Positions 2,562 through 39,360 of a stretch of DNA of 64,000 bases are shown here, piece by piece (positions within the stretch are counted from its first letter, which is position 1; the number at the start of each line of letters is the position of its first letter). The stretch covers positions 5,643,378 through 5,707,377 of the forward strand of contig NC_087381.1 in assembly GCF_963675165.1 (NCBI RefSeq), given 5' to 3'. Position numbers and translations under genes: made by a program. The stretch is from Halichondria panicea (Eukaryota > Porifera > Demospongiae > Suberitida > Halichondriidae). The notes under the pieces were generated by a model, which saw nothing but the letters and a program-made list of their open reading frames with translations, was not told where the DNA came from and made no database searches.

Positions 2562-3988
2562 CAATATTTACTATTATAATTTATTCTAGAATACTGTTAT
2601 TATTGTGCGTATATATAATTATACGTATGTATAATTATAAAATTTCATGGTGCACATTGTTCAATTATCCCCATAATTAAATTAAATGGACAGTGCATAA
2701 TTATTGTCTGCAAAATTAGTTTCAGTATAGTTTTCCTACATTCTGAGGATTGAGCTTCAATGGATTTACAACCGAGAGCAACACAATGAATCCATAATTA
2801 TACTGACAGCAGTTAAGGTTAAGGTCATTACGATAAAACGTTATCGCATCTGTTTTACCGCTGTGGAGATGCAGCTTAATGCACAGAGTGAATGTTCTAT
2901 AATTATATGAGCATCTTCTTGTTCAGTTATAGATTCAACAAACAAGAAGTATTTCACTTGTAGTGGCAAATGTTCATAAGGCATAGGGCAGAGCAGTTAA
3001 CGCGAAAATTAAAAACTGCATGAGCGTTATTATATAATGGGTATACAACAACAATTTAGGAGAGTATTAGATTAGTTGTGTTCATGGGTTTTATATATTT
3101 ACGTAGACAGCTGCCCTTCACGACAAGAATTAACACTATAATTATAGTAATAATGTCTGCATAATTATAAGCACTATAAAACGATCTGAACAAAACAAGT
3201 GACTTTATAATCTAGTTTTCTATACTGTAGCTCTATGCATTCAGACAGTATAATAGCTATAATTATATGCACCATATAAAAACTTGCCACTCATAACAAC
3301 AGCCTATATATACGTGCTTCTATATAATATATATATAGTCATACCGCTATTTAGACTAAGGATATAGTGGCACTAGACAATAAAACAGTTAGTATCTATG
3401 CTAGAACCTGGGCATCACAAGGCTTTCCTGTGAGTGTGAAAGTTCTTTTACCTAATTATGGGTTATACTTTTTTGCCACTTTTCCTCATTTTCAAGCAAT
3501 CCACGACTTTGGTGAGCCCGTTTCCAATGCAGTCTCGTCGACTTTAATGGATTCATTTTGCATGGTACTACGATCATGTTTGCTGAATTTAGAGTCTCTT
3601 GGCTTGAGATGAACAATAGTCGTTGGATTCTTGCTCTGCATATAATAATAATTATAGATATTGTCACGACTCTGAGACCATACTATATAAACAGACAGTC
3701 TAACTTGAATTACAATGGAAGGGGCACATACTAGTGTAAACCCTCGGCGTTAATTTGTGATTTAGTGTAGTCTACAGCCTCACGTCAAAGCCACGTGTAC
3801 ATCTAGGCCAATGTGCAGGTTCAAGCTTCTTAGCTTCTTAGCTTTTGCTCCCTTTTATTCGACAATGAAGCTTTAAAATCAAAACTACTACGTTTTGAGG
3901 TAATTATGTATAGGTGCTTGTCGTAGTACATTGTAGGGGCCTTCACACATGCATGCATGCACTGTCTATATAATTATAATTGAAGATA
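2562..3988. other. intergenic, between convergent 3' ends
   Basis: AT-rich spacer between the stop codons of TRIM-A1 (+) and receptor copy 1 (-). It is nearly the same at 26030-27484 and 51192-52697, with small indels (a 22-base stretch near 3084 is missing relative to A2). It holds many TATAATTATA-type palindromes, AT microsatellite near 3320-3340 and an ATGC run near 3950. The short open frames here start at GTG or drift between copies and are not supported as genes. Confidence 0.5.
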
Positions 3989-6900
3989 CTACAATCTGCA
4001 TACCAGATTGTTTTTTCCTGAGGTAGAAGTAGATGCACCACTGTCAGTCTTGCTTCGGCACCGCTTTAGAAAATTTGTAACCTAAAAATTTAGAAGATAC
4101 ATAAAAATTAATGCTAAAATAACGATATACAACACACCTTTTCACTCCGGAGCACATGGAAGAAAAATACGAACAGGCCTTGCAGTGAGTTAAAGATAGT
4201 GAACAACCATGCAAACACAATAGTGTTGCTGTTGACTGAGAGTAGACCAAACACCCAAGTCAGCCCGAGTAGTGGAAGAAGAATTATAGTGGCCTTGAAG
4301 AGTTGTCTGCATAATTTACGCACACATGCATTGGGATCAACACACGTTGCATTTACTGAATAGTATAGTGAGCACTCACGAGAATAACTGTAAAGATTCC
4401 TTTTTTCCTCTTTGTTGCATGGTTAATTTTTTTTGTTTATAGACACTGCACAAAGCAGCCAAGAGAAAGAATACGTTTACCTGTACAGGTAATCGTCATA
4501 AAGAAAATGTTAGTCAAGGTAACTGATAGACCGGACCCTATAACAACTGCAAAATGTCCTAATTCAATCCAAATGGTTGCAAGCTAAAGAGATCTCACCA
4601 GAACAACTAGTAGCATCGGTGCAACAAATGCCCATACGGCTCCTTTATCACCGGCACCAACAGCAATCCAACAACTGCATTGTACATAAGGGACAATAAA
4701 ATAATGTTGTCAGTATAATTATACACATTCTAATAAGAATTTGGAGAGGTGAATCGAAAACTTACTACTCTTCTGTGCCATACTGGTCATGAATAAGTCC
4801 AGCAGATATAGCCACCGGTATCACTGGAACACCTGCAAAACAAATCCAATGCATTCGACATAATGCTCACTGAACATGCAGTAGAATGGGCAGTGGAATG
4901 CATGGGTCTAAGGGGCACTCTGCTTCCCTTGATCTCAGAGGTCAAAAGGCAACAAGCACTTTAATGTCTCGGTATTAATAGTGGTCAAGGGCCCATAATT
5001 ATACCTAGTATATACATCGCATAATTATACAAAATAGAATTTACCCCATCCAATAATAAAGAATATCCACCATTTCTTGGATATTTGGCTGAAGACAACC
5101 ACCAACATGAGATAGAGCATGATTCCTTCACAGAGCATCCAAAAGAACACAGCAGTGAACAAGTAGTGAAGGAGAGCAGCCACAAACGCACACGCTATCT
5201 GAAAGTGATGGCAAATTAATGGAGATCATACTATAATTATGTGGCGCACCTATGAATGTGATTATAACCGTAAGTAAAATAATTATTACGATAGATCATA
5301 GTTAATATTGTAAAAACAAAAGTATATGCATACGCGTTGAGTAAAATGCAAAGTCGCGGATCATACTTCATAATTATTCGTTTTTCGAGTGACAAAATAT
5401 TGATTTTTCTATCAAGTAAGCAGTAAATATGACACTGTAATGTCATAACGTGAAATTTTTGAGACGCTTAAATTTCGTGGAATGGCCTCTAAAAGCATTT
5501 CGTCCAATAAATTTCGTGGATTGACTGCTTACCAGAAGCCACACCTTTAATCTTTGCACTTTATAGCAGATAATCGTGAAATTAATTTCATGTGTAGGAT
5601 TGCTAATCCATGAAAACAGCAAAAATTAAACCCCTCGAAAATTGTGTGCTTATATAATTATATACGGTACGTATTTGCGATCTTCTTTTGTGATACCATA
5701 ATGACATACAATACAGTCATAATTATAATGGTCACTGATTCGAGAACAAAACTTCAACTTTGGCATGCCATTGTCTGTGAAAGGTGAAAGGCATAAACTG
5801 CACCAGCTATACGATACTATAAACACTATAAGTACACGACTCAAGTAACACCTTGTTGGCCACAGCAGTCTGTATTCCTGACAAGAACGCCACGTAACCA
5901 AGGAGCAAAGAAATAGACAGGTTGAGATGGATGAAGTTATGAACTCTGGTCAGCAGTTCTTTTCTAAACATCAACAGCATAAAACGTTGTACGTGTATAC
6001 AAAGCTATTTATAGTTTTTCGATGATTACCTCAATGCCAGGAAATAGATGATAGTTAACAGAAGAAAAAAGATGGAGATGGAACAACCGACATAAGTCAA
6101 CAACGATAGAGCAAACCTGATCTCTGGAGTTGTGTCCTACAAAAGGACCAAACGTATTATAATTATTCATCCAAGTAACGTACTGCACGAGGCTCACATT
6201 CAGTGCTCCAGTGACATCCATTAGAACAGCAAATGCTGTGAAATGACTGCTCTCACAGACAATATTATATACTCTCATTTGCTTGTCTTCATCCACACTG
6301 ACTGTAGTCACACCTTCCATGGACCACCTGCTGTTGGCCGCATCACTAACAATAAAGTAATTGTGACATTTTGATTGAACAACGATTAGGCAAAATTAAT
6401 GATAGCTCACCTAGAAACACTCCAAAATACACATGTGGCATTTTCTGCAACTTCACTTTCAGAAAACTGCACGTAATATATATGGATTAGTGACGCTCGT
6501 AAGTTCAACTGTTATAATTATTTATTGCCTTTTGGGTAGTGAAATTGAAGGTTGCCTTTGTCTGAAAGTTATTTAACTTCACATCGGAGAAGACTTGACT
6601 AGAAATAACCTGTGAGACCGGTCTGGTCGTGTTCCTGTGTATAAGCATATACAATGAGACTGAGCAGAACATGACTAAGAGTACTGTACATTTCAAGATT
6701 GGTTTTTGGAAGAAAACCCTCCAAGTTGGAGAATAGAATGTTAACTGCTGAAACATTCCCTTCTGAAAATTGAAACCGATAAGGATAATTTTGTTTACCA
6801 CTGATGTGTATATTATATGAAATACCTCGGGCGCCTCTCTCCGCAAAGAGAGCAGCTGGTATCACAGTTTGAGCTGAGCCTGTTTCTTCACTGACTTTAA

Positions 6901-9900
6901 TAACTTCAGGAAATGTAATGTCTTCCAAATTAGTGGGGTCAACTTTCATTGCAGATAGCACTGCATGCATGCATGGACGGTAAATACAAATAATTATAAA
7001 TACTAGAGCACTAAACTCTCAGTATTAGTCGGGGTATACTTTTAAAGTACATGTATAGATTACATGCAAGTCATAATTAATCAAAATTGTCTGTTCCGAG
7101 CACATCACCCCATATCCGGGGCAAGGCTGGATAACGGCATTTTCACAACCGACTTTTGTCTTTTTAAACCTTCATAATTATGAACACGATGTCATGAGCT
7201 CCAAAGGCACTACTGTGGCATCCAGCAAACAATTCAGGTGCATGAGCAGACTCGAATAAAAACATCACAGACAAGTACGCAGACAAACTACTATAACCTG
7301 GGTACCGCGGCGCGCCATGCATAGAACAAAATAATAATTATTAGCTATAATACGTCTGTTGAAGTACGCATACCGATATTCTGTCTCACAAGTGTGATTT
7401 CAGTCATGTCGCCTGTATCCACAGCTTCACTTCTTAGTGCCAATGACACATACTGACCATATAACTCTGCATTCAACAGCAATTGCTGACTCTCAGCAGA
7501 AGAACCCTGACAAGATTGTATATTATTAACATAATTCAATACCTTTGCCATTATTATACCTCTTGCAATCTTTCCCATCCTTCTGTATTCCTCTCATCAA
7601 GAACATTGCTGAGAATGTTCAGAACTCCCTATATACAAATAAAAGCAATAAAGCAAAAGGGAAATATTTTACTGTCTTACTTCACTAAAATTGAGAGAGG
7701 ACATGGGACCAGCAGACTCTATGTTTTGAATTAGGTAATTCACACTTGACTTGACAATCAAATTAGTAGTGCTGAGGTCTTGAGGGAATATGGTGGAGTC
7801 TCCTGTTGCATTGACATTAGTAGCCTCCGCAAGAGAAGTAAGAAGATCATCAACTTCATTCTGAGAGGCATTTCTAAGAAATATATCATTTGCCTGAACG
7901 GGGAAAACTATAGCTGGTGAAAGATTGTATTACTTCACACGAATACATGCACTGTCATCTAATATTATTACCGTTCATGACAATACGTATTAAACTGCAA
8001 AAGTCTTACCGTGTTATTCAATATACTGATTTCTTCCCTAGCACAGTTATCAGTATTCACTGCTTCCCACATTCCTTTAAGTGTACAGAAACGAGTTGCA
8101 GTACCTGTATAATAATAATATACATGCACATCACATGCACAATCTCAATAATGACATAATTATATACCTGAAGTTGTTCCAGTTCCATTTTGTGGGCATT
8201 GCCGGGAATAGGAAAAGCCAGCCACAGTGACAGGGAAGAAAAGCCACCAGACAGAATCCTGTTCAGCTTCACAAACCATCACGCCTATAATAAAGCAAAA
8301 AAAGTTCGATTAACAAATGAATATAACCACTCGCTTCGCTCAGCCCAAAGAGCTTACAAAAACCACAACTATAATTCTGAATGCAACATTACCTGGACAT
8401 GAAGAACCAACAGTACCCAGGTCAATAGTGGTGTCGTTTCTTGCAGCTACAAATATTGTCACAGGAGCTATTGTTGAAAGTTGCGGATTGCCATTGTCTG
8501 TTGCTATGACCATGAACGAGTGTGAGGATGCATTCTCAAAGTCCAGCCTCTCCTGTGTAAATATTGCACCCGAATTGTCAACTCTAAACACATCAGTTTC
8601 AGCCAGAACGTAAGCAATCAACAAGTCATTGTCTCTGTCTACAGCACCGACACATAGCACAGTAATGTTGAGTGGAGTATTCTCGGGTATAGTCGTGGAA
8701 TAAGCAGCCATGGAAAACATTGGAGCATTGTCATTTTCATTAAGCACGTTCACCGTAATGCTTGCAAAAGCTGGAGGGGTGACTTTATCGGTAGCTCTAA
8801 CTGTCAGTGTGTAAGTCTGAGTGTCCTCAAAGTCTAGATATGAAGTGACTAATAGTTGACCAGTGTTAGGCTCAAGTGAAAACTTATTTTGCTCATTTCC
8901 ACTAGTAATGTCATATGTGAGGTTTTCGGTATCCACATCAGTGGCCATCACGATAATCAACAAATGTCCAAATAAAACGGATTCAGATATCTCAACATAA
9001 TATTCAGAGACTTGAAAGGAAGGACTGATGCAATCAAAGTTCATACTCGTAGTCAGTAGACAAGAAGTGCCATTACAACACGGGTTGTCGGTACAGATAC
9101 CGTCACTATTCACTAGGGGACCACAATCACATTGTTCTCCCTCCTCCTCATCCAGGAGATTGTTGCCACACAGACTGTCTGCTAATAAGCAACCGTCACC
9201 TGTGTGCATGAGTACATGCAAGGGACTAAATTACGGACGCTATATATAAAAGACCGCTAGCAAAATATCCTCCAAATAAGGAAACTAATGCTTCCATGGC
9301 CACTGCCCTCCCCACTCACTTGAGCTCTGCCCACGATCACGAATAACTCCCAACATCTCGGCTCGGCTGCGTGGAGAGAACTGATCGTTGTTGGGCTGAC
9401 TACCATCTAAGGGGAACGCGTCCATTAGGTACACACCGCCAGCCTCAGGGGGATCCACAGGGGGGTCATGCTGTGTGAGGGTGGAGGTAAATATTGGGTT
9501 GGGGTCATGCTGTGTGGGGGGTGGAGGTAATATTGGGTGGGGGGTCATATAATGTGTGGGGGTAGAGGTAATATTGGGTGGGGGTCATGCTGTGTGAGGG
9601 GTATGTGTGCGCATGCATGTATGTGTATTGTAGAGGATGGGTCCATCTCTATAGAATTTTGACTGCTCATGCAGCAAAAATTACACGGTATATAAAATTA
9701 TACGTATGTATATGATTATAGCAGGCCATTGAAAAGCACAGTCATGGTATATAATTATATATACACGCACATGTATGTTATACACTGTACATAATTATAG
9801 TAACGCACTGTTGAGCCGAAGTTGTGTCCTGCCTCGTGTGCAAAGGTGAACGCGGCTATGGCAGAAGGGATGCGAGTGTTGTAGTTTAAGATGCTCACAA

Positions 9901-10066
9901 TCCCCGCATTGAGGGTCCGGTTCACACCTCCAGAGAAGGTCTGGTTCGCATCTCCAGGGAAGGTCTGAATGTTCTCACAGATGCCACCTGAACAATATAT
10001 GTGTATTATATGCATGTGTGGGGGAGGAGGAGAGAGTGTGTGTGTGTGAGAGAAGTGTTCGTGGGG

Positions 10067-10141
<75 letters not shown>

Positions 10142-13100
10142 AGGGTATATATACGTACAATGCGTCATGCAAGTATCCATTTGGGTGGGTGGAATTGTGT
10201 CCACTGTTCACTCAAACAGAATGCTCCCCTAACAATGTATCGGGCGTTTCTAAAACTTGAAGCAGGGGAGTGCTGATGTATATACGTATATGGTTGGCAT
10301 CTGTAGGACAGAAGTTCTAGAATGCTACTACGATTTATAAACTAGCGAAATACAAATTTAGAGATAAAATTAATGCTCAAGAATGATAGTGGGATAAAAG
10401 TTAGGGTCCTTCGTGTGCATTTACTGTAGGAAATGGAGGTCGCAAAGGAGTGTTTATATACATGCAGTTATACAAACGTGGGATCTAATTTACGCAGGAT
10501 AAACTAATGGCAGCATAGCTAGACTCTATAGAGACAAGACGATTACATGTACATGACAGGATAGACTTTCCAAACCAATTATACCCGTTGTGAGAATTAA
10601 AGAAATCGTCTACAATAGCCGTTCATTAGTATTTCGTTAGTATTCATTAGTATTTCGAACACCAGTGTACCACACACCCACCCACACACACCCACACTCC
10701 ACATCTCCACACACACACACACCCACACACACCTGCCGCATTGACTCCAGGTTGTGGTGCCACGTACGCTAATCCTACAACACCATTGTCAAAATCACGA
10801 CTAGTGAACCGATAACTCAGACAGTACTGCGACCAATCAGCTGTCGAGTGCTCGGTGAGAAATTCCAGTACGCTAATAAACTGGTTATCGTAGAAAGTGC
10901 CACTAGCAGGAGGAGAGTTCTCGACCTCCATACCAAGAATACCAAAATGAATGCCGTCAGCCAACCCGTCATCGTCAAAGTCGGTACCCTCAAATATTCT
11001 GCTTCCCTGCAAGTGGAGGAGGGGTTACAGTTAAGTATGGTAATTTATTATCATAATGAAAGCACCACGTCACGGATGCTGATGCCTCGGTGGATGTGTC
11101 AAAGCTACATCTACTATAGCTATTGCTAATATGTGTGATATTGATGAACAATTTTCTGAATGACCCTGTGGGAAAAGAAATTGATTGGGACCACTTTGTT
11201 AAAAATGTGTTAGACGACACAAGTATACAGTGTTTTTTGCATTTAGCCATAATCATATTTTTGCTGCGTGCAGGGAATTAACTCAAAAAGTGGGAAATGA
11301 TTCCAATTGGACCATGCATGATTGCAATCAATGGCTGCTGCACCATGCAGTAGAGCAGAGCCTTCTCTTATTCTCACTCTTGCAGCTACCAATAGCTAGC
11401 ATTCTATATAGCGCAGAGCTAGCTACTAAGGAAGTAGCAACACTCCAGAGACAATTATATAACATAACTCAAGAACGAAGTATATCTAGTATTATTTTGC
11501 AAATCCACGAATTAATCCGGCCAAAAAGTATTACTAAGGATTGAACTGCAGCAAAGGCAGGTCTCTTGGTTGGATGTTTAAGTATGTGTAGATATTATTT
11601 AAGTGTACTGCTATACTACCTAGAGTACAATTATACCCCCCCCCCACACACACACATACACCACACACATCCTCACTCATCACACACCCCTCACCGTCAA
11701 TATAATAGTTGACATCACGCTCAGTGGATTGTCTCCAGCTGCTTCCAAAGCAGTCACAAATTTGTAATCAGCAATCGCATACAGCCAACATCTAACCAGA
11801 GTGGAATCGAACCCTGTTGTCTGGCGTTTTTGAAGTCTTGCTGACTCAGCACTACGGATGACAGAGTCTTGCAATTGTAGAAGCTCCCTACGTAAGGCTT
11901 CATGGGAGGAGCCACAGGTTGCCCTGGAAACAGTGGATAAGTCGAGATCTGAGTGCCGATAAATGACACTGTGGTGACTTGCATCTCGAAGATATCTGCG
12001 AGAAATATGAATGTGTGTTAATTGCATTTACCGTAAAGCAGATAATTATATAAACTTTCGAGGAATGACCGCTAGAAAGTTTTCGGGAATTTAATTTTCA
12101 CGAAATAGTAGCCTTTTTGCAGCATGCATGCATGCATGCGATATTAAATTCGTGAGTATAAATGGTTCGTGGTAAATACTTAATCAGCGAAAATCGTGAA
12201 CATAATTATGCTCTCGAAATAATACCCGCTAGCTAATTTTTATACATGACCTGAAAAGTTCTAATGAAGGCCCTATGTGAAATCAAATTTGCAAGGAATA
12301 ACATAGTGATGATTATCCCTAAATGTATTCATTTACAACTGCCAAGTAGGAAAGGCAATGCATGAATAATGGTAGTACTAATTTTATTCATTGCCTTTCC
12401 TGCTAGTTGCAGTTACAACAGCTTTAGCACGAGTATCTGTGACGTAGGTCTGGAGGAATGCCTTTTGTGTGCAGTCTATTGGAGATGCGCATATGAACTC
12501 TTGTTTTACGCATACAATGTACGTTCAACTTTCTGCTATTTACAACTACACAAAACATATTATACATAGAGGGCAAGCCTCTAGTGTAATGAACAATTAG
12601 AGCTTTCAACACAATGTCATGATTGCATAAGCTAACGTAGTGCCCCACCCTCTTCCTTACCTGCGCGAGGGTTCAATATGGTACATCTCCTCATCGGCAA
12701 TAATCGTTCCGTCAAACACCTCATGAGCCAGGTTGCCATGCACACGAACAGAAGGGTCATCTGCATTGACATGTATAATAAATACAGCTTATATTTATGT
12801 ACATAGCGGAAAATGTTTGCAGGTGTAAATTTTTGCGTTGAATGTTCTGCTGTTGTTCCTCAAAAAAAGCAAAGATTTGCACCGTATATATAATATAGTA
12901 TGTATTTGTTTTGGTACAATAACCTAATTCTGCCCAGACATGCAGATTACCAAATTACAGCACATTAATTCCGAATATCAGGTTTGCAATTGCAATCACA
13001 TGCAAAGAGTTGCCCGCATACTTTGCAATGCAAAGTTAGAAACGCAATCAAGCTTGTGCAGTGTTATTCGCATTCGAATAACACTGCATTCACCCGATAT

Positions 13101-15254
13101 AACTTTAAGCAACACTGTCAGACTCGCTACGACTTTATAATAACTGTAACCCAAATGATTTCACCACTTTTCCACGAGAAAAATATTAACACTCTGGACA
13201 AAGTGGCTTAATTAATCTTCAAAGATGCACTGTTCAGCAGCCATACTTATAATTATGAACTTTGGGCATCGTTTTTAGCATGCAATAATCATGGTCAATC
13301 ATAATTATTATTGGAGTGAACAATTGTATACTGAGTGTGTACAATTGAGTAGCTAAATAGTCCACTGAGGCATCAGTAGGTGCTTTCATTTGTTTAAGCT
13401 ATTCAGATCGATAGCTGATCCCCTGAACATTAACCCTTATACTCTATATACACTGACTTTGATCAACACCACTGTACAGATGGATTTTGGCCAATTGACT
13501 GCTTGATTTCTGTCCGTCAATGGTTAGGGTGAAGTTCTTGTGAAAGAAACGGGTCTCAGGTTTCAACAGCAGGTTGAAGTCCCTAAAGAGAATCGTAACA
13601 TTCGGTAACTATGTGTTAAGTGCTGACATAAATATATTATAGCCTTGTCTTCAATAATAGTAGAGGTTATTTGTAATGTTATTGCTAATCATACTGCCAT
13701 TACTGGCGTATTATTGCTTTATATCAACAAGTTCCTTAGCTTATAATATAAACAGATATATCCATGCATGTATTTTGTATTGTGAATGGAGCATTTTATT
13801 GTAAATTGGAAGCAATAATTATTGTACACACAATTTCTGCTCACTTTCCAAAGGCAGTGAACTGTAGTTCTAGAGACTTATCCCCCACCATACTGCGTCT
13901 CACTCTGTGATGGTTCCATAGCAACGACTCGCTATCGTAGGTGAGAGGCTCGTAGTGACGAATAAAATTGCTCAGGGCTATATGTGTATGGGAGGCGTGT
14001 GTGTGTGGTGTGTGGTGTGTGGGGGCATTGTGATATAGTAACTATGCTTACTGTAAATTATAGAATGCGAAGTATAATAATTATGATTATAGTTGATGAA
14101 ACAATTTCCAATCATTCCCAGGATGAACAAGGCTTCGGCCTCGCAGTTGAGTCCCTTGTCCATGCATTCATGGCAGGGGCGGGCTCTATTTTCCCCCAGG
14201 CAGCAGATCATGTAATATCAAGTAATGATTATTCTTAGCTAGCAATAAGTGTTTTAATGTGTGCACGAGGAGGATGCAGTACTGAATGCTCGAGCGTATA
14301 TAGCGAGTGCATTACTCAACCGAGAGAGCATTATTGCATCATCCGTAAAACACGTTGGCTAACTAAGTGTGTTATAATTATTATTATTATTGAGGTACTA
14401 GCACTGTGTATCAATGTGCTTCCATGCATGCCTGCAGTTGGTCTTCAGCTGCTGCATATGGCCAGCTAGAGAAACTCACCGAACTCTGTCAGGCATCAAA
14501 TTGTGCCAAATAAAAGTGCACGAAAAAAATCTAAACTATAATTGCACACAAAATCGATTTGCGTATTGATAACACTCCAGCCTGCTTGGACACAGCGGCT
14601 TTGTAGCCATCTTTAGATGGCCATGGAAATACTACCGAGCGAAAACTCAAGCTGAGTTCAATCTAGATATATAGAGTGCAAGCAGTACAGGGCCAGGGTG
14701 CCATGGGGCAATTCCCATAAACAAAAAACCTTGCAAAGCGATATCCTTTGACCATTGTAAAGTGCTGAATCAGCAATGAGCCCCACCCACCCTAGCTGCT
14801 AGGAGTGGGTAGGGCTCATTGCTGATTCAGCACTTTATAAACTGCTTTGCAGGTAAACTGGTTCCCTGATTGCCTGATCCTTGTGGAATTGCTCCACGTA
14901 CCCTGTATACTGCACTCTATCTTGTGTCAGCTAGCTCTAGCTGTGCATATATATTATGTAGATCTAGTTTGGCAAATTTAAAACGGAAAACCATACCGGC
15001 ATACGTTTTGCACTATTTCGCAGTTTTTTCATGGCCATCTGTTAGTGTGTGTAATTGTTGGTGCATTACACGCACTTTTACTTGATGCCTAACAGAGTTC
15101 GGTGACCTACTTCACTATATATAGGTGAGAGTGTATACCAATGTCAACCATTGTTCTATATCTCTGACACAGACACAGTACATTGTGAAGTCTCACCTTC
15201 TCCTCGGACGATCCCCAGGAGAAGAGCGACGCATAACAGGCTGTATAACTTCAT
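3989..15254 (-). CDS. ADAM10-like metalloprotease / cadherin / adhesion GPCR, copy 1
   Basis: Exons, reading down the minus strand: 15254-15197, 13977-13845, 13582-13458, 12760-12661, 11995-11695, 11006-10733, 9987-9809, 9470-9320, 9199-8393, 8284-8168, 8104-8010, 7893-7681, 7628-7560, 7506-7374, 6960-6826, 6762-6690, 6634-6529, 6466-6411, 6327-6198, 6136-6030, 5963-5852, 5198-5045, 4832-4766, 4674-4599, one or two short exons in 4380-4524, 4306-4138, 4063-3989. Phases agree at every junction except around the short ones. Product about 1,370 aa: signal peptide ([18 protein letters not shown]), ADAM10-type prodomain (NFIRHYEPL), likely Cys switch (C166), KR processing site (195-196), Zn protease ([12 protein letters not shown] at 381-392, YLMD Met-turn), truncated disintegrin, two cadherin repeats, HormR, GAIN, GPS (HFT), 7TM, 24-residue tail ending VCRL. 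Expected at the plasma membrane. The 6529/6466 intron appears GC-AG. Confidence 0.85.
4138..6136 (-). CDS. seven-helix exons of receptor copy 1
   Basis: TM1 on 6136-6030 ([16 protein letters not shown]), TM2 on 5963-5852 ([18 protein letters not shown]), TM3-TM4 on 5198-5045 ([20 protein letters not shown]), the second extracellular loop and TM5 on 4832-4766 and 4674-4599 ([15 protein letters not shown]), TM6-TM7 on 4306-4138 ([29 protein letters not shown]). These match class B2 adhesion GPCR signatures. The end of TM5 (LTNIFFMTI) and loop 3 lie in 4380-4524, where I could not settle the splicing. Confidence 0.85.
5441..5669. mobile_element. degenerate MITE of the CCGTATAGC family between TM2 and TM3 exons
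   Basis: The interior aligns with the intact element at 61167-61400 (shared GGCCTCTAAAAGC, GACTGCTTACC and AAGCCAC.CCTTTAAT blocks). The ends are decayed but still finish in ATACGGTA. It is present at the same place at about 28955-29182 and 54155-54383, so it was inserted before the duplications. Confidence 0.65.
6198..6466 (-). CDS. GPS exons of receptor copy 1
   Basis: Exons 6466-6411 and 6327-6198 encode the GPCR proteolysis site: [16 protein letters not shown], then [14 protein letters not shown]. The cleavage triad reads H-F-T (family consensus HL/T), so self-cleavage looks possible. Of the usual four cysteines only the first and third are present: the second (after W..G) is V and the fourth (two before H) is S. 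The missing two form one disulfide in known GPS structures. Confidence 0.8.
8010..8284 (-). CDS. HormR exons of receptor copy 1
   Basis: Two exons (8284-8168 and 8104-8010) give a cysteine-tryptophan pattern: [19 protein letters not shown], then [12 protein letters not shown] and a final C. This is the hormone-receptor motif that precedes the GAIN domain in many adhesion GPCRs and confirms that the cadherin part leads into a receptor rather than a classical cadherin. Confidence 0.8.
8393..9199 (-). CDS. fusion exon: disintegrin stub plus two cadherin repeats
   Basis: One uninterrupted 807-base exon, flanked by phase-1 splice sites. It first encodes a disintegrin start of the ADAM10 kind ([17 protein letters not shown], then NPCCNGTSC), then passes directly into cadherin repeat 1 (DVD, YLDFE, NENDNAP) and repeat 2 (DRDND, RLDFE, ATDNG), ending SSCPG. 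The C-terminal half of the disintegrin and the ADAM cysteine-rich domain are absent. Equivalent exons: 31889-32695 and 57108-57914, each also 807 bases. Confidence 0.9.
9462..9602. repeat. minisatellite spanning the exon-8 splice acceptor
   Basis: About 3.5 units of roughly 41 bases, each containing GGGGTCATGCTGTGTG and GGAGGTAATATTGGGT. On the minus strand, the CACACAG acceptor and the first codons of exon 8 (HDPP) lie in the first unit, so copies of the acceptor region are repeated upstream. Receptor copies 2 and 3 have only about two units. Confidence 0.8.
10068..10139. repeat. GT microsatellite
   Basis: About 70 bases of nearly pure GT in the intron upstream of the catalytic exon. The other two copies have much shorter GT tracts at the same place (near 33400 and 58620), so it expanded after duplication. 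The long poly-Thr/His and poly-Val/Cys open frames over it are artefacts. Confidence 0.9.
12029..12234. mobile_element. degenerate MITE of the CCGTATAGC family, copy 1
   Basis: The ends (TACCGTAAAGCAG at about 12029; CTCGAAATAATACCCGCTAGC ending near 12230) resemble the inverted ends of intact elements at 47275 and 61167. It is also present at about 35891-36095 and 61088-61526, so it predates the duplication. It lies in the intron between the 12661 and 11995 exons. Confidence 0.55.
14116..14215 (-). other. Cys-rich open stretch inside intron 1
   Basis: The minus strand reads a cysteine-rich peptide with spacing CC-x7-C-x2-C-x6-C. It is present in all three receptor copies at matching places (near 38115-38220 and 63550-63650) with a few substitutions (N to D, A to S, E to A). 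No donor site with a matching phase was found and the exon 1-exon 2 join works without it. It is either intron sequence or an alternative exon; I do not recognise a domain. Confidence 0.2.
14476..15105. repeat. foldback (long inverted repeat) in intron 1, copy 1
   Basis: Two arms of about 300 bases are imperfect reverse complements: TCACCGAACTCTG at 14476 pairs with CAGAGTTCGGTGA ending at 15105, and the match continues through ATGGCCATG motifs and the 'agtgctgaatcagcaatgagcc' region to a centre near 14796, where the arms almost touch. It sits in intron 1. Its centre is deleted in the A2 copy and only one arm remains in unit B2. It is probably a non-autonomous foldback transposon or an old inverted duplication. 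Confidence 0.75.
15197..15254 (-). CDS. exon 1 of receptor copy 1 (signal peptide)
   Basis: ATG at 15254 opens 19 codons with a short basic start and a leucine/valine-rich core ending VRGE, a good secretory signal. One base is left over before GTGAGA. The next exon starts with CC, giving phase-1 joining to [10 protein letters not shown], which is exactly where human ADAM10 begins its prodomain after its signal peptide. The same 58-base exon recurs at 23037-23094, 39320-39775 (split) and 47882-47939. Confidence 0.85.
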
Positions 15255-27484: not shown

Positions 27485-30400
27485 CTATAATCCGCATACC
27501 AGATTGTTTTTTCCTGAGGTAGAAGTAGATGCACCACTGTCAGTCTTGCTTCGGCACCGCTTTAGAAAATTTGTAACCTAAAAATTTAGAAGATACATAA
27601 AATTAATGCTAAAATAACGATATGCAACACACCTTTTCACTCCGGAGCACATGGAAGAAAAATACGAACAGGCCTTGCAGTGAGTTAAAGATAGTGAATA
27701 ACCATGCAAACACAATAGTGTTGCTGTTGACTGAGAGTAGACCAAACACCCAAGTCAACCCGAGTAGTGGAAGAAGAATTATAGTGGCCTTGAAGAGTTG
27801 TCTGCATAATTACGCACACATGCATTGGGATCAACACACGATGCATTTACTGAATAGTATAGTGAGCACTCACGAGAATAACTGTAAAGATTCCTTTTTT
27901 CCTCTTTGTTGCATGGTTAATTTTTTTTGTTTATAGACACTGCACAAAGCAGCCAAGAGGAAGAATATGTTCACCTGTACACAGGTAATCGTCATAAAGA
28001 AAATGTTAGTCAACTTAGAAAAGGTAACTGATGGACCGGACCCTATAACAACTGCAAAATGTCCTAATTCAATCCAAATGGTTGCAAGCTAGAGAGATCT
28101 CACCAGAACAACTAGTAGCATCGGTGCAACAAATGCCCATACGGCTCCTTTATCACCAGCACCAACAGCAATCCAACAACTGCATTGTACATAAGGGACA
28201 ATAAAATAATGTTGTCAGTTGTATTTAATATAATTATACACATTCTAATAAGAATTTGGAGAGGTGAATCGAAAACTTACTACTCTTCTGTGCCATACTG
28301 GTCATGAATAAGTCCAGCAGATATAGCCACCGGTATCACTGGAACACCTGCAAAAACAAATCCAATGCATTCGACATAATACTCACTGAACATGCAGTAA
28401 AATGGGCAGTGGAATGCATGGGTCTAAGGGGCACTCTGCTTAATTCCCTTGATCTCAGAGGTCAAAAGGCAACAAGCACTTTAATGTCATAGTGGTCAAG
28501 GGGCCCATAATTATACCTAGTGTGTACATCGCATAATTATACAAAATAGAATTTACCCCATCCAATAATAAAGAATATCCACCATTTCTTGGATATTTGG
28601 CTGAAGACAACCACCAACATGAGATAGAGCATGATTCCCTCACAGAGCATCCAAAAGAACACAGCAGTGAACAAGTAGTGAAGGAGAGCAGCCACAAACG
28701 CACATGCTATCTGAAAGTGATGGCAAATTAATGGAGATCATACTATAATTATGTGGCGCACCTATGAATGTAATTATAACTGTAAGTAAAATAATTATTA
28801 CGATGGATCATAGTTAATATTGTAAAAACAAAAGTATATGCATACGCGTTGAGTAAAATGCAAAGTCGCGGATCATACTTCAAATAATTATTTGTTTTTC
28901 GAGCGACAAAATATTGATTTTATCAAGTAAGCAGTAAATAATTTATGACACTGTAATGTCATAACGCGAAATTTTGAGACGCTTAAATTTCGTGGAATGG
29001 CCTCTAAAAGCATTTCGTTCAATAAATTTCGTGGATTGACTGCTTACCAGAAGCCACACCTTTAATCTTTGCACTTTATCGCAGATAATCGTGGAATTAA
29101 TTTCATGTAGGATTGCTAATCCATGAAAACAGCGAAAATTAAGCCCCTCGAAAATTGTGTGCTTATATAATTATATACGGTACGTATTTGCGATGTTCTT
29201 TTGTGATACCATAATGACATACAAATAATTATAATGGTTACTTATTCGAGAACAAAACTTCAACTTTGGCATGCCATTGTCTGTGAAAGGTGAAAGGCAT
29301 AAACCGCACCAGCTATACGATACTATAAACACTATAAGTACACGACTCAAGTGACACCTTGTTGGCCACAGCAGTCTGTATTCCTGACAAGAACGCCACG
29401 TAACCAAGGAGCAAAGAAATAGACAGGTTGAGATGGATGAAGTTATGAACTCTGGTCAGCAGTTCTTTTCTAAACAGCAACAGCATAAAAAGTTGTACGT
29501 GTATACAAAGCTATTTATAGTTTTTCAATGATTACCTCAATGCCAGGAAATAGATGATAGTTAACAGAAGAAAAAAGATGGAGATGGAACAACCGACATA
29601 AGTCAACAACGATAGAGCAAACCTGATCTCTGGAGTTGTGTCCTACAAAAGGACCAAACGTATTATAATTATTCATCCAAGTAACGTACTGCACGAGGCT
29701 CACATTCAGTGCTCCAGTGACATCCATTAGAACAGCAAATGCTGTGAAATGACTGCTCTCACAGACAATATTATATACTCTCATTTGCTTGTCTTCATCC
29801 ACACTGACTGTAGTCACACCTTCCATGGACCACCTGCTGTTGGCCGCATCACTAACAATAAAGTAATTGTGACATTTTGATTGAACAACAATTAGGCAAA
29901 ATTAATGATAGCTCACCTAGAAACACTCCAAAATACACATGTGGCATTTTCTGCAACTTCACTTTCAGAAAACTGCACGTATATATGGATTAGTGACGCT
30001 CGTAAGTTCAACTGTTATAATTATTTATTGCCTTTTGGGTAGTGAAATTGAAGGTTGCCTTTGTCTGAAAGTTATTTAACTTCACATCGGAGAAGACTTG
30101 ACTAGAAATAACCTGTGAGACCGGTCTGGTCGTGTTCCTGTGTATAAGCATATACAATGAGATTGAGCAGAACATGACTAAGAGTACTGTACATTTCAAG
30201 ATTGGTTTTTGGAAGAAAACCCTCCAAGTTGGAGAATAGAATGTTGACTGCTGAAACATTCCCTTCTGAAAATTGAAACCGATAAGGATAATTTTGTTTA
30301 CCATGCACTGATGTGTATATTATATGAAATACCTCGGGCGCCTCTCTCCGCAAAGAGAGCAGCTGGTATCACAGTTTGAGCTGAGCCTGTTTCTTCACTG

Positions 30401-33400
30401 ACTTTAATAACTTCAGGAAATGTAATGTCTTCCAAATTAGTGGGGTCAACTTTCATTGCAGATAGCACTGCATGGACGGTAAAATACAATAATTTGAGCA
30501 CTAAACTTACTTTTAAAGTACATGTAGATCACATGCAAGTCAAAATCAGTTTCTACAAAATTGTCTGTTCCGAGCACATCACCCCATATCCGGGGCAAGG
30601 CTGGATAACGGCATTTTTACAACCGACTTTTGTCTTTTTAAACCTTCATAATTATGAACACGATGTCATGAGCTCCAAAGGCACTACTGTGGCATCCAGC
30701 AAACAATTCAGGTGCATGAGCAGACTCGAATAAAAACATCACAGACAAGTACGCAAACAAACTACTATAACTTGGGTACCGCGGCGCGCCATGCATAGAA
30801 CAAAATAATAATTATTAGCTATAATACGTCTGTTGAAGTACGCATACCGATATTCTGTCTCACAAGTGTAATTTCAGTCATGTCGCCTGTATCCACAGCT
30901 TCACTCCTTAGTGCCAATGACACATACTGACCATATAACTCTGCATTCAACAACAATTGCTGACTCTCAGCAGAAGAACCATGAAGATATTTGATTGTCT
31001 ATATACAACGTAATTCAATACCTTTGCCATTATTATACCTCTTGCAATCTTTCCATCCTTCTGTATTCCTCTCATCAAGAACATTGCTAAGAATGTTCAG
31101 AACTCCCTATATACAAATAAAAGCAATAAAGCAAAAGGGAAATATTTTACTGATAATTATAGTCTTACTTCACTAAAATTGAGAGAGGACATGGGACCAG
31201 CAGACTCTATGTTCTGAATTAGGTAATTCACACTTGACTTGACAATCAAATTAGTAGTGCTGAGATCTTGAGGGAATATGGTGGAGTCTCCTGTTGCATT
31301 GACATTAGTAGCCTCCGCAAGAGAAACAAGAAGGTTATCAACTTCATTCTGAGAGGCATTTCTAAGAAATATTTCATTTGCCTGAATGGGGAAAACTATA
31401 GCTGGTGAAAGATTGTCATGAACGGTAATAATATTAATATTAATATCAGTATGTCCTATAGATGACAGTGCATGTATTTGTGTGAAGAAATACGTATTAA
31501 AGCAAAAGTCTTACCGTGTTATTAAGTAAACTGATTTCTTCCCTAGCACAGTTATCAATATTCATTGCTTCCCACATTCCTTTAAGTGTACAGAAACGAG
31601 TCGCAGTACCTGTATGATGATAATACATGCACATCACATGCATAAAATGACATAATTATATACCTGAAGTTGTTCCCGTTCCATTTTGTGGGCATTGCCG
31701 GGAATAGGAAAAGCCAGCCACAGTGACAGGGAAGAAAAGCCACCAGACAGAATCCTGTTCAGCTTCACAAACCATCACACCTATAATAATGCAAAAAAAT
31801 TTTGATTAACAAATGAATATAACCACTCGCTTCGCTCAGCCCAAAGAGCTTACAAAAACCACAACTATAATTCTGAATGCAACATTACCTGGACATGAAG
31901 AACCAACAGTACCCAGGTCAATAGTAGTGTCATTTCTTGCAGCTACAAATATTGTCACAGGAGCTATTGTTGAAAGTTGCAGATTGCCATTGTCTGTTGC
32001 TATGACCATGAACGAGTGTGAGGATGCATTCTCAAAGTCCAGCCTCTCCTGTGTAAATATTGCACCCGAACTGTCAACTCTAAACACATCAGTTTCAGCC
32101 AGAGCGTAAGCAATCAACGAGTCATTGTCTCTGTCTATAGCACCGACACATAGCACAGTAATGTTGAGTGGAGTATTCTCGGGTATAGTTGTGGAATAAG
32201 CAGCCATGGAAAACATTGGAGCATTGTCATTTTCATTAAGCACGTTCACCGTAATGCTTGCAAAAGCTGGAGGGGTGACATTATCGGTAGCTCTAACTGT
32301 CAGTGTGTAAGTCTGAGTGTCCTCAAAGTCTAAATATGATGTGACTAATAGTTGACCAGTGTCAGGCTCAAGTGAAAACTTATTTTGCTCATTTCCACTA
32401 GTAATGTCATATGTGAGGTTTTCGGTATCCACATCAGTGGCCATCACGATAATCAACAAATGTCCAAATAAAACGGATTCAGATATCTCAACATAATATT
32501 CAGAGACTTGAAAGGAAGGACTGATGCAATCAAAGTTCATACTCGTAGTCAGTAGACAAGAAGTGCCATTACAACACGGGTTGTCGGTACAGATACCGTC
32601 ACTATTCACTAGGGGACCACAATCACATTGTTCCCCCTCCGCCTCATCCAGGAGATTGTTACCACACAAACTGTCTGCTAATAAGCAACCGTCACCTGTG
32701 TACATGCATGGGACTAAATTACGGACCCTATATAAAAGACCGCTAGAAAAATACCCTCCAAATAAGCAAATCTAATGCTTCCATGGCCACTGCCCTCCCC
32801 ACTCACTTAAGCTCTGCCCACGATCACGAATAGCTCCCAACATCTCGGCTCGGCTGCGTGGAGAGAACTGATCGTTGTTGGGCTGACTACCATCTAAGGG
32901 GAATGCGTCCATTAGGTACACACCGCCAGCCTCAGGGGGGTCCACAGGGGGGTCATGCTGTGTGAGGGTGGAGGTAAATATTGGGTGGGGGTCATGCTGT
33001 GCGTGCAAGTATGTATGTGCATTGGATGAGGATGGGTCCATCTCTAGAATTTTGACGGCTCATGCAGCAAAAATTACACGGTACAAAGCACATGCCTGAT
33101 GGTAGTACACGCACACGCACATGTACAGTACAGATATATGTTATACACTGTACATAATTATAGTAACGCACTGTTGAGCCGAAGTTGTGTCCTGCCTCGT
33201 GTGCGAAGGTGAACGCGGCTATGGCAGAAGGGATGCGAGTGTTGTAGTTTAAAATGCTCACAATCCCCGTATTGAGGGTCCGGTTCACACCTCCAGAGAA
33301 AGTCTGGTTCGCATCTCCAGGGAAGGTCTGAATGTTCTCACAGATGCCACCTGAAGAATAAAAAAAATTATGTATGCACGTGTGGGGGTGGAGGAGAGAG

Positions 33401-34429
33401 TGTGTGTGTGTGTGTGTGTGAGTGTTTGAGGGTATACGTACAATGTGTCATGCAAGTATTCATAATTGAGGTGGGTGGAATTGTGTCCACTGTTCACTCA
33501 AACAGAATGATCCCCTAACAACGTATCGGGCATTTCTAGAACTTGAAGCAGGGGAGTGCTGATGTATATGGTTGGCATCTGTAGAACAGAAGTTCTAGAA
33601 TGCTACTACGATTCATAAACTAGCGAAATACAAATTAGAGATAAAATTAATGCTCAAGAATGATAGTGGGATAAAAGTTAGGGTCCTTCGTGCGCATTTA
33701 CTGTAGGAAATGGAGGTCGCAAAGGAGTGTTTATATACATGCAGTGATACAAACGTGGGATCTATTTACGCAGGATGAACTAATGGCAGCATTTAGCTAG
33801 ACTCTATAGAGACAAGACGATTACATGTACATGACAGGATAGACTTTCCAAACCAATTACCTGTTATAAGAATTAAAGAAAAATTGTCTACAATAGCCGT
33901 TCATTAGTATTTCGTTAGTATTCGTTAGTATTTCGAACACCAGTGTACCACACACCCACCCACACACACCCACACTCCCCACACACACACATACACCCAC
34001 ACATACCTGCTGCATTGACTCCAGATTGTGGTGCCACGTATGCTAATCCTACAACACCATTATCAAAATCACGACTAGTGAACCGATAACTCAGACAGTA
34101 CTGCGACCAATCAGCTGTCGAGTGCTCGTTGAGAAATTCCAGTACACTAATAAACTGGTTATCGTAGAAAGTGCCACTAGCAGGAGGAGTGTTCTCGACC
34201 TCCATACCAAGAATACCAAAATGAATGCCGTCAGCCAACCCGTCATCGTCAAAGTCGGTACGCTCAAATATTCTGCTTCCCTGCAAGTGGAGGAGGGGTT
34301 ACAGTTAAGTATGGTAATTTATTACATTATAATGAAAGCACCACGTCACGGATGCTGACGCCTCCCTCGGTGGATGTGTCAAAGCTACATCTATACTATA
34401 GCTATTGCTAATACACATGCACATGTGTG

Positions 34430-35095
34430 ATATTGATGAACAATTTTCTGAATGACCCTGTGGGAAAAGATTGATTGGGACCACTTTGTTAATGAAAGCA
34501 CCGCGGGTGCTGATGCCTCGGTGGAGGTGCCAAAGCTACATAACATAAAACTACTAATAGCTAGCTTTTATACACACATTGATTATAATTATCATGATGA
34601 ATTTTGCTGCATGCAATCAACCGAATAGTGGGTAATGATCGACCATGATTGTTGTTAAAAACGATCGATGCCAAAAGTTCAAGTCTAAAATTAATGGCTG
34701 CAAAGTCAGCAGAGCCTTGCAGCTCTCTGCTCACTCTTGCAGCTACCAATAGCTAGCGTTCTAGTGCAGAGCTAACTACTAAGTAGAGTAGTAACACTCC
34801 GTGAACAAGTTTTGCTACGGACTCTTCTGAAAAGGCTGCAATAGCATTCCAAGTAAGCAAAACTAGGCATAACTCGAGAACGAAGCATTATTTTGCAAAT
34901 CCACGAATTAAAATCCAAGTAAACATGACTAGAAGCCTATAGAAACTCTTACTTGCACTTGATTCATCCTTGAGCAGCTGTATCGGTCCACACACACAGA
35001 CACACAGATACACAGACACACACACAGACACACAAACACACTACCGTATACCTCGCTTGCGCATGCGCACCGAGGCATAAAAATATGTTAGACGA
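34430..35095. repeat. intron block partly duplicated in tandem (copies 2 and 3 only)
   Basis: Between the 35558 and 34280 exons, copy 2 has about 600 bases that copy 1 lacks. They partly repeat their neighbours: AATGAAAGCACC..GATGCCTCGGTGGA occurs twice (34330 and 34493), and AGCTACCAATAGCTAGC..AGAGCTA..CTACTAAG occurs at about 34740 and 35248. A CA-rich microsatellite lies at 34990-35040. Copy 3 shares the block at about 59640-60265. Confidence 0.65.
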
Positions 35096-38000
35096 CACAA
35101 GTATACAGTGTTTTTGCATTCAGCCATAATCACATTTTTGCTGCGTGCAGGGAATTAAGGGAAATGATTCCAATTGGACCATGCATGATTGCAATCAATG
35201 GCTGCTGCACCATGGCCGTAGAGCCTTCTCTTATTCTCACTCTTGCAGCTACCAATAGCTAGTATTCTATATAGCGCAGAGCTAGCTACTAAGGAAGTAG
35301 CAACACTCCAGAGACAATTATTCAAGAACGAAGTATATCTAGACAGTAAGTATTATTTTGCAAATCCACGAATTAATCTGGCCAAAAAGTATTACTAAGG
35401 ATTGAACTGCAGCAAAGGCAGGTCTCTTGGTTGGATGTTTAAGTATGTGTAGATATTATTTAAGTGTACTGCTATACTACCTAGAGTACAGTTATACCCC
35501 CCCCCCCCACACACACACATACACCACACACATCCTCACTCATCACACACCCCTCACCGTCAATATAATAGTTGACATCACGCTCAGTGGATTGTCTCCA
35601 GCTGCTTCCAAAGCAGTCACAAATTTGTAATCAGCAATCGCATACAGCCAACATCTAACCAGAGTGGAATCGAACCCTGTTGTCTGGCGTTTTTGAAGTC
35701 TTGCTGACTCAGCACTACGGATGACAGAGTCTTGCAATTGTAGAAGTTCCCTGCGTAAGGCTTCATGGGAGGAGCCACAGGTTGCCCTGGAAACAGTGGA
35801 TAAGTCGAGATCTGAGTGCCGATAAATGACACTGTGGTGACTTGCATCTCGAAGATATCTGCGAGAAATATGAATGTGTGTTAATTACATTTACCGTAAA
35901 GCAGATAATTATATAAACTTTCGAGGAATGACCGCTAGAAAGTTTTCGGGAATTTAATTTTCACGAAATAGTAGCCTTTTTGCAGCATGCATGCATGCGA
36001 TATTAAATTCGTGAGTATAAATGGTTCGTGGTAAATGCTTAATCAGCGAAAATCGCGAACATAATTATGCCCTCGAAATAATACCCGCTAGCTAATTTTT
36101 ATACATGACCTGAAAAGTTCTAATGAAGGCCCTATGTGAAATCAAATTTGCAAGGAATAACAGTCAATTTGCAAGGAATAACATGGTGATGATTATCACT
36201 AAATGTATTCATTTACAACTGCCAAGTAGGAAAGGCAATGCATGAATAACGTAGTACTAATTTTATTCATTGCCTTTCCTGCTAGTTGCGGTTACAACAG
36301 CTTTAGCACTAATATCTGTGACGTATAGGTCTGGAGGAATGCCTTTTGTGTGCAGTCTATTGGAGTTGCGCGTATGAACTCTTGTTTTTACGCATACAAT
36401 GTACGTTCAAATTTCTGCTATTTACAACTACACAAAACATAATTATACATAAAGGGCAAGCCTCTAGTGTAATGAACAATTAGAGCTTTTAACACAATGT
36501 CATGATTGCATAAGCTAACGTAGTGCCCTACCCTCTTCCTTACCTGCGCGAGGGTTCAATATGGTACATCTCCTCATCGGCAATAATCGTTCCGTCAAAC
36601 ACCTCATGAGCCAGGTTGCCATGGACACGAACAGAAGGGTCATCTGCATTGACATGTATTCAATCATAATTATAAGTACAGCTTATATTTATGTACATAA
36701 CGGAAAATGTTTGCTGGAGCAAATTTTCGCGTTGAATGTTCTGCCCTGCCCTCGAAAAAAGCAAAGATTTGCACCGTATATATAATATAGTACGTATTTG
36801 TTTTGGTACAATAACCTAATTCTGCCCAGACATGCAGATTACCAAATTACAGCACATTCCGAATATCAGGTTTCGAATGCGAGGTTTTTTCCATTGCAAG
36901 TTTTTACAATCACACGAGTGCCTGCCCGCATGCTTTGCAATGCAATTGGCAATAGTTAGAAACGCAATCAAGCTTGTGCAGTACGTGTCATTCCCATTCA
37001 AATAACCTCACATTCACCCGATAAAATTATCTTCTTTAAGTAACACTGTCAGACTCGCTACGACTTTACAACCCAAATGATTTCACCACTTTGCCACGAC
37101 ATTAACACTCTGGACAAAGTGGCTGAATTAATCTTCAAAGCTGCACTGTTCAGCAGCCATACTTATATGAACTTTGGGCATCGTTTTTAGCATGCAATGA
37201 TCACGGTCGATCATTTCTCACGATTTTGCAGCAATAATTATTAGTATGGTATTATGTGAAAATGTATACTGAGTGTTAGTAGCTATAGTCCACTGAGGCA
37301 TCAGCAGGTGCTTTCATTTGTTTAAGCTATTCAGATGTGATAGCTGACCCCCTAAACATTAACCCTTATATTATGTCTCTATATATCATATACACTTACT
37401 TTGGTCAATGCCGCTGTACAAATGGATTTTGGCCAATTGACTGCTTGATTTCTGTCCGTCAATGGCTAGGGTGAAGTTTTTGTGGAAGAAATGGGTCTCA
37501 GGTTTCAACAGCAGTTTGAAGTCCCTAAAGAGAATCGTAACAATTGTTAACTATATATGTGTTAAGTGCTGCCGTATAGCCATATATAGTAGAGGTTGTT
37601 AATTTGTATGTTATTGCTAATCATACTGCCATATGCACTGACGTATTATTGCTTTATATCTTTGATTTCAACAAGTTCCTTAGCTTAGAAATAATTTTTA
37701 TATACAGATATATACACATGAACATAAGTCTTTGATATGGCAATTTGAATGAATCAACCAACAGAGGACAACCTCCAAAAAGAGGCAAAAGCTCTGCTCC
37801 CAAAATGTCTTTTTTCAGAGGTTTAATTGTACATCCATGCATGTAGTTTGTATTGTGAATGGATTATTTAATTGTAAATTGGATGCAATAATTATTGTAC
37901 ACACAATTTCCGCTCACCTTCCAAAGGCAGTGAACTGTAGTTCTAGAGACTTCTCCCCCACCATACTGCGTCTCATTTTGTGATGGTTCCATAGCAACGA

Positions 38001-38986: not shown

Positions 38987-38996
38987 CCTACTTCAC

Positions 38997-39229: not shown

Positions 39230-39360
39230 TTCACTATATATAGGTGAGAGTGCATGCATACCAATGTCAACCATTGTTTTATATCTCTGACACAGACACA
39301 GTACACTGTGAAGTCTCACCCTCTCCTTGGACGATCCCCAGGAGAAGAGCGACGCATAAC

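Follow-up and report, generated by a model that had tools for sequence, protein, structure and literature searches.

In sponges as in other animals, one may ask whether a protease and the receptor that it could act upon can be parts of the same polypeptide. As a rule, sheddases and adhesion G protein-coupled receptors (aGPCRs) are distinct molecules that come together at the membrane. A 64,000-nucleotide stretch of contig C5 of the demosponge Halichondria panicea (here the window; genome size 131 Mb) was predicted from its letters alone to join them, with an ADAM10-type protease, cadherin repeats, and an aGPCR in one chain. The locus therefore raises the question of whether one gene encodes this chain or two genes have been read as one and, if the gene is single, how it arose and how its product could work.

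Structure of the fused gene

In the copy of the gene designated A, reading by eye, assembly by script, and comparison with an NCBI model gave a single chain of 1426 residues from 28 minus-strand exons (Table 1). The chain comprises a signal peptide, which was called by eye, an ADAM10-type prodomain, a zinc protease, a disintegrin stub, two cadherin repeats, HormR, GAIN/GPS, a seven-transmembrane (7TM) domain, and a tail. The original prediction had placed all parts from the signal peptide to the 7TM domain on one strand and in one frame, and both the phase-consistent exons and the Pfam matches of the assembled chain bear this out. All 27 acceptors in the model are AG, and 26 of the 27 donors are GT. 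The exception is the donor of exon 17, which is GC in copies A, B, C, and E; it was accepted because copy D has GT at this place and NCBI uses the same join, and GT alternatives were out of frame by eye. Exons 15 and 16 of copy A are separated by 63 bases (6825-6763) that are open, but a read-through was rejected because NCBI splices these bases out and because the corresponding intron of copy C has 61 bases, so that reading through would break the frame of C. A first assembly, for which three frames were read by eye and then scripted, had 27 exons and 1383 residues. The gene had been predicted to end at 3989, which did not hold: exon 27 joins at 4004 to exon 28, as it does in the NCBI model P0001 and its relatives, and exon 28 was added because P0001 splices the last exon on to a further tail exon.

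Table 1. Fused genes in the window and the parts of copy A (positions count from the first letter of the window).
Feature	Position	Strand	Basis or remark
Copy A, whole gene, 28 exons, 1426-residue open chain	3492..15254	minus	Assembly, Pfam, NCBI P0001
Exon 1, start codon and signal peptide-like stretch	15197..15254	minus	Same start in copies C, D, E; close likeness in P0009
Exons 2-5, ADAM10-type prodomain and protease start	11695..13977	minus	Pep_M12B_propep, alignment
Exons 2, 3, 4, 5	13977-13845, 13582-13458, 12760-12661, 11995-11695	minus	
Exons 6-8, zinc protease	9320..11006	minus	Reprolysin_2, conserved ADAM10/17 columns
Exons 6, 7, 8	11006-10733, 9987-9809, 9470-9320	minus	
Exon 9, disintegrin stub and two cadherin repeats, unbroken	8393..9199	minus	ADAM/cadherin junction ~9029
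Exons 10-11, HormR, entry via phase-1 intron	8010..8284	minus	HRM below Pfam cut-off
Exons 12-19, GAIN, GPS, tethered-agonist-like TAFAVLMDV	6198..7893	minus	Pfam, ADGRL3 alignment
Exons 20-27, 7TM domain and start of cytoplasmic tail	4004..6136	minus	7tm_2, best PDB match ADGRL3
Exon 28, cytoplasmic tail	3492..3635	minus	P0001, search of the copies
Copy B, exons 1-27	27485..39369	minus	No ATG at start place, 1-base deletion in exon 13, otherwise same exon set
Copy C, exons 2-27 in window	52698..63479	minus	Open; exon 1 outside window at C5:5708184-5708127

The same fusion is found in P0001, a predicted NCBI model from H. panicea named 'adhesion G protein-coupled receptor L3-like isoform X2', whose 90% cluster contains 20 sequences. 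By its letters P0001 corresponds to copy B, and it begins downstream of that copy's damaged exon 1. In the 1383-residue version of copy A, Pep_M12B_propep (1.5e-6), Reprolysin_2 (5.9e-20), Cadherin (2.6e-29, two stretches), GAIN (8.5e-18), GPS (6.1e-7), and 7tm_2 (3.3e-58) score above the Pfam cut-offs, so that two features of an aGPCR, a secretin-type 7TM domain and a GAIN domain with GPS, are present. HRM falls below its cut-off (0.00038; 21.2 bits against 26.2). No complete disintegrin domain was found by Pfam, the Disintegrin match being below cut-off (0.0029; 18.8 bits against 35.1) and covering profile positions 1-31 of 75 only. The best PDB match of the aGPCR part is ADGRL3 (3.9e-68), and directly C-terminal of the predicted GPS cut the sequence TAFAVLMDV resembles a tethered agonist.

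The ADAM part, with ADAM17 (2e-33) and ADAM10 (7.9e-32) as its best PDB matches, retains its catalytic residues. The zinc motif HExxHxxGxxHD, which the original prediction had read as a complete HExxHxxGSxHD, is indeed intact in copy A at residues 381-392, where it straddles exons 7 and 8, and it is present in all five fused copies. Copy A also has a Met-turn (Met406), a cysteine-switch cysteine (Cys166), and a dibasic KR site (196). When P0001 was aligned with eight ADAM10/17-type proteins, the zinc histidines, catalytic glutamate, Met-turn, and cysteine-switch cysteine were kept, the last being invariant in nine of nine aligned proteins, and copy A carries the same catalytic and cysteine-switch residues as P0001. 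A protease-domain cysteine pair, with one cysteine after HD and the other in FSxCS, is absent in the alignment from both P0001 and P0009, an ADAM10-like protein encoded elsewhere on C5. P0009 has a Pfam match to the ADAM cysteine-rich domain, which has none in the fusion. In intron 7 (window 9460-9620, minus strand), a short repeat contains CACACAG|CATGACCC at least twice more; these are additional copies of the exon 8 acceptor and first codons, which encode the HD of the zinc motif, and alternative acceptors are possible.

The question of one gene or two turns on exon 9. This exon has 807 bases and no in-frame stop, holds the disintegrin stub and both cadherin repeats, and is open in every copy except D, where it is broken. 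In the ADAM-only paralogues, the corresponding exon stops at a splice donor just past the matching Cys codon, the point at which the fusion ceases to resemble ADAM; its likeness to cadherin begins within a few bases. The cadherin part is modelled by AlphaFold mostly with pLDDT >90, and the calcium-site motifs ENDNAP, DxD, and LDFE can be read in it by eye. The nearest cadherin in the genome, 54% identical to the cadherin part, is a 6027-residue open frame on C16; the region C16:466-494 kb contains intron-less open frames of 6027 and 6172 residues with cadherin-like repeats. Residues 489-761 of P0009, which make up its cysteine-rich and membrane parts, were searched for in the window and in copies D and E and gave no match below E 1, which argues against a separate ADAM gene with an end concealed in the locus. 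That two genes were read as one was rejected as the main explanation, since the junction falls within exon 9 and NCBI makes the same join. On the basis of the 28-exon open model, exon 9, and the NCBI join, a single gene appears to encode an ADAM10-type protease, cadherins, and an aGPCR, as had been predicted.

Copy number and selection on the protease part

Five fused copies lie on C5 from ~5.647 to 5.787 Mb, with A, C, and E open and B and D damaged. The architecture had been predicted to occur three times. The window does contain three fused genes (A, B, and C), of which B is damaged, and two more lie elsewhere on the contig. In copy D, exon 9 has lost two bases and contains a stop, and exon 26 has lost 56 bases; copy C reads exon 14 from an in-frame acceptor that is shifted 18 bases upstream. 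All five copies have exon 28, which is shifted in D and has a variant start in C. In their longest matching stretches the copies are 93-96% alike and so do not count as independent support for the architecture; the single exon 9, the NCBI model, and the selection pattern are better evidence than copy number. Five plus-strand TRIM-like open frames (window 232-2561, 16171-18299, 23696-26026, 42895-45147, and 48849-51191), with RING, B-box, filamin, and NHL parts by eye and some of them in two frames, are interleaved with the fused genes in the duplicated stretch.

Between copies A and C, exons 1-9 diverge by 2.6% and introns 1-8 by 9.8%; these exons show no indels in 2128 aligned bases, and these introns have 1932 gap columns. 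Their exons 15-27 are 99.8% identical and the introns of that region 98.6% identical, with two base differences in the 262 codons of the 7TM part, suggesting from the pattern of identity that exons 15-27 were recently homogenised, as after gene conversion. Synonymous and non-synonymous changes between A and C were counted by the Nei-Gojobori method with Fisher p values. The ADAM part has 20 synonymous changes in 321 sites and 20 non-synonymous changes in 1113 (dN/dS 0.28, p 1.3e-4), its catalytic part 9 in 169 and 8 in 563 (0.26, p 0.007), and the rest of the chain 16 in 585 and 19 in 1959 (0.35, p 0.004). For the cadherin part alone, the counts of 4 in 142 and 8 in 467 give a ratio of 0.60 that is not significant (p 0.49), which counts against the explanation that we favour below. 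Between A and E there are eight changes of each kind in all (ratio 0.30), too few for the parts to be tested one by one.

Changes in the ADAM part were also polarised with two ADAM-only genes; of the 43 variable sites, 13 were ambiguous or fell on single branches. The A-E lineage has eight synonymous and four non-synonymous changes. The C lineage has 7 and 11, a sign of weaker constraint that likewise weighs against the favoured explanation. Since exons 1-9 are without an indel between A and C and dN/dS is 0.28, the protease part is apparently under purifying selection in the fused genes, with a clear signal in A-E and a weak one in C. Gene conversion or exchange with the ADAM-only genes could mimic or blur such constraint.

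Origin and occurrence of the fusion

The gene for P0009 (C5:6193-6203 kb) lies ~0.54 Mb from copy A, and its ADAM part is 84% identical to that of P0001 (385 of 456 residues). A second ADAM-only gene, at C5:5612-5623 kb on the same strand, is ~24 kb from copy A. By tblastn, the exon borders of the ADAM-only genes match those of the fused gene up to the disintegrin exon. The active site of P0009 reads HQxxH, with glutamine in place of the catalytic glutamate, and the nearer ADAM-only gene retains HExxH; P0009 (L042, L043) is a naturally occurring E-to-Q variant alongside relatives whose motif is intact.

The receptor part belongs to a larger family. The H. panicea aGPCRs P0002-P0008 and P0010 are 78-84% identical to it over HormR-GAIN-7TM, with P0010 and P0008 covering less, and these sister receptors have Reeler, IgGFc-binding, Sushi, and Calx-beta ectodomains. 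Counted by eye from the matches listed, the genome has at least 27 loci of this family, of which 22 lie apart from the five C5 copies. Four of these 22 (L046, L047, L048, and L049) were read for damage, and in each the HormR exon is preceded by a decayed relic of the cadherin exon found in the fusion; the relics carry stops or frameshifts and have 67-77% DNA identity, the one at L047 being partial. In a DNA search counted by eye, pieces of the cadherin exon were found near 16 of the 22 loci elsewhere, a count that includes pieces 2-5 kb off near C1:17.517 Mb and is accompanied by two further short pieces on the opposite strand. Relic-bearing loci occur on C1, C4, and C10.

The simplest reading of these sequences is that the ancestral receptor was cadherin-HormR-GAIN-7TM, and that the other copies would have lost the cadherin exon and gained other ectodomains. 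Given the cadherin-exon relics near 16 of the 22 loci, the ADAM part was probably the addition: an ADAM10-like gene probably joined, on C5, the still open cadherin exon of a former cadherin-receptor. Synonymous distances in the ADAM part, 0.065 from A to C and 0.17-0.20 to the ADAM-only genes, bound the age of the fusion and make it young. An ancient receptor is not favoured, because an ADAM-only protein from the same contig shares 84% identity with the ADAM part and because, among the 27 matches to the ADAM region (4622 scored), 7tm_2 is found in the H. panicea protein itself only. By its sequence, the fused gene is a young and so far single-species chimera.

The search behind this statement covered 5.8 billion proteins and needs shared five-residue words and similar length, so that distant cases may escape it. 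The original prediction had proposed looking in sponge and other early-animal proteomes for Reprolysin, Cadherin, and 7tm_2 together, and among the matches listed the H. panicea protein is the only one with both ADAM and 7tm_2: no other such protein was found among at least 45 matches to the whole chain (8000 scored) or among those to the ADAM region. Exon 9 as the query gave six matches among 476 candidates, all cadherins and without a disintegrin domain by Pfam, spliced homologues being outside the reach of this search. In the literature, as covered by title and abstract, no ADAM-cadherin-aGPCR fusion was described, which agrees with the original claim that no such protein is known. The words 'peptidase' and 'reprolysin' do not occur in the part examined of an Amphimedon GPCR survey (PMC4302439), nor 'sheddase', 'metalloprotease', or 'ADAM10' in the part examined of a 2026 aGPCR review (PMC13197933). 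A transcriptome study of H. panicea, in the portion consulted, reports 333 GPCR genes, 57 of them with a GPS, and the legend of its Figure 1 lists cadherin, IgGFc-binding, Calx-beta, Sushi, and 'peptidase28' as receptor domains (PMC8242945). The consulted text of that study is without 'reprolysin', 'metalloprote', or 'adam', and its figure or supplements could show a related receptor (PMC8242945).

Possible mechanism and likeness to known systems

We put at about even the chance that the gene is a young H. panicea chimera, made when an ADAM10-like gene was joined in frame within an exon to the cadherin exon of a receptor, amplified in tandem, and now providing a receptor head that reports encounters in trans. 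By sequence, its predicted product is one chain of the secretory pathway with intact zinc-protease residues, cadherin repeats, GAIN/GPS, and 7TM. The prodomain would be removed after KR196, and the GPS would cut at HF|T, leaving a protease-tipped N-terminal fragment non-covalently bound to the 7TM part. In ADAM10, the cysteine-rich domain helps to cover the active site. The protease of the fusion, which is without that domain, would perhaps be more open. ADAM10 itself has a closed, autoinhibited structure according to the part of the report consulted (PMC13045381). In the fusion, the protease may cut or grip proteins of neighbouring cells, of the matrix, or of microbes, with the cadherin repeats as a rigid spacer or an adhesion arm, and a pull on the N-terminal fragment, or its loss, could bare the tethered agonist and start a signal. 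Force on the N-terminal fragment of CD97 can expose its tethered ligand, as stated in the portion of that report consulted (PMC10761324). The protease would be carried at the outer end of a long ectodomain, well away from the GAIN domain of the same chain; a cut of its own stalk in cis is less likely because of this geometry, and action in trans seems likelier than self-shedding.

Some features count against the encounter-reporting chimera. The predicted prodomain cut, ARLQKR|Q, is dibasic and not an RxxR furin site. The GPS of copy A reads CVFW...HF|T and is without cysteines 2 and 4 of the motif in ADGRL3, and the fusion has HFT where ADGRL3 has HLT; because two of four cysteines are absent and the site is HFT, autoproteolysis is uncertain. 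P0002, P0003, P0005, and P0006, the four sister receptors that were read, have the same atypical GPS. For the disintegrin stub (residues 1-53), AlphaFold gives pLDDT <50 from a shallow alignment of 17 sequences.

A more specific reading, that a working ADAM10-type protease at the receptor tip couples proteolytic encounters to G-protein signalling through removal of the N-terminal fragment, would make the protein a one-molecule cutting sensor born in one sponge lineage, and we propose it tentatively. It is doubtful that the ADAM fold is a ligand-binding head and nothing else, with aGPCR ectodomains exchangeable and catalysis irrelevant: the Sushi, IgGFc-binding, Calx-beta, or Reeler ectodomains of the sister receptors would fit such a role, and HQ for HE in P0009 implies that loss of catalysis is tolerated in this ADAM group, but HExxHxxGxxHD is kept in five fused copies and the catalytic part is under purifying selection (dN/dS 0.26, p 0.007). 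The intact active site, and the presence on one chain of a protease and a domain of a substrate class, cadherin, would also suit an enzyme that cuts its own or an adjacent ectodomain, in the cadherin repeats or the GAIN region, and so frees the tethered agonist. We find such shedding, which the original prediction had put forward, unlikely, since two cadherin repeats and HormR between protease and GAIN would make a cut in cis awkward, and loss of the distal ectodomain need not take away the half of GAIN that covers the agonist.

An artefact of annotation, in which ADAM-like and cadherin-GPCR genes were merged, or a recent chimera without function, is very unlikely. The fusion is known here from genomic sequence and predicted models, in one species, and two of five copies are damaged; however, the junction falls within an 807-base exon open in A, B, C, and E, the NCBI pipeline made the identical join, a search of the locus for an ADAM cysteine-rich or transmembrane exon found none, and the dN/dS values and indel-free exons 1-9 form a pattern of selection. 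Least probable of all, in our judgement, is that dissociation at the GPS releases a soluble ADAM-cadherin enzyme as the main output in place of a G-protein signal. The GPS is located between protease and membrane, and the ADAM membrane anchor and cysteine-rich domain are gone, as a releasable enzyme would have it, but the 7TM part is also kept (two base differences in 262 codons), though that stretch was probably homogenised.

As a natural fusion, the gene makes the coupling of a protease to a tethered agonist testable in one molecule, with five copies, the HQ paralogue, and the relic exons as natural controls. The locus is in a young state in which fossil exons can still be read, pointing to sponge receptors built by swapping heads on a conserved GAIN-7TM cassette; the cadherin relics before HormR are fossil evidence of a cadherin ectodomain that Sushi, IgGFc-binding, and other heads replaced.

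Among known systems, ADAM10 and ADAM17 share with the fusion a prodomain with cysteine switch, the zinc motif, the Met-turn, and the start of the disintegrin domain. In place of their complete disintegrin domain, cysteine-rich domain, single-pass anchor, and tail, the fusion has cadherins and a GPCR, and it also differs from P0009 and the other ADAM-only gene, which continue into the cysteine-rich part. Cadherin repeats before HormR-GAIN-7TM are common to the fusion, where HormR is below cut-off, and CELSR/Flamingo (ADGRC). The cadherin array of CELSR/Flamingo has about nine repeats, in contrast to two in the fusion, and the absence from the fusion of EGF and laminin-G domains (no Pfam match at E<=0.1) led us to reject membership of CELSR. 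With the latrophilin-like ADGRL receptors, the fusion shares GAIN, GPS, a tethered-agonist-like stretch, and a secretin-type 7TM domain, and it differs from them in the ADAM10-type protease of its ectodomain and in a GPS with HFT and without Cys 2 and 4. The same HormR-GAIN-7TM cassette, with different ectodomains, is found in P0002-P0008 and P0010 of H. panicea. The fusion, with an architecture so far undescribed in the literature searched, is thus not a new kind of system but a variant of the adhesion GPCR.
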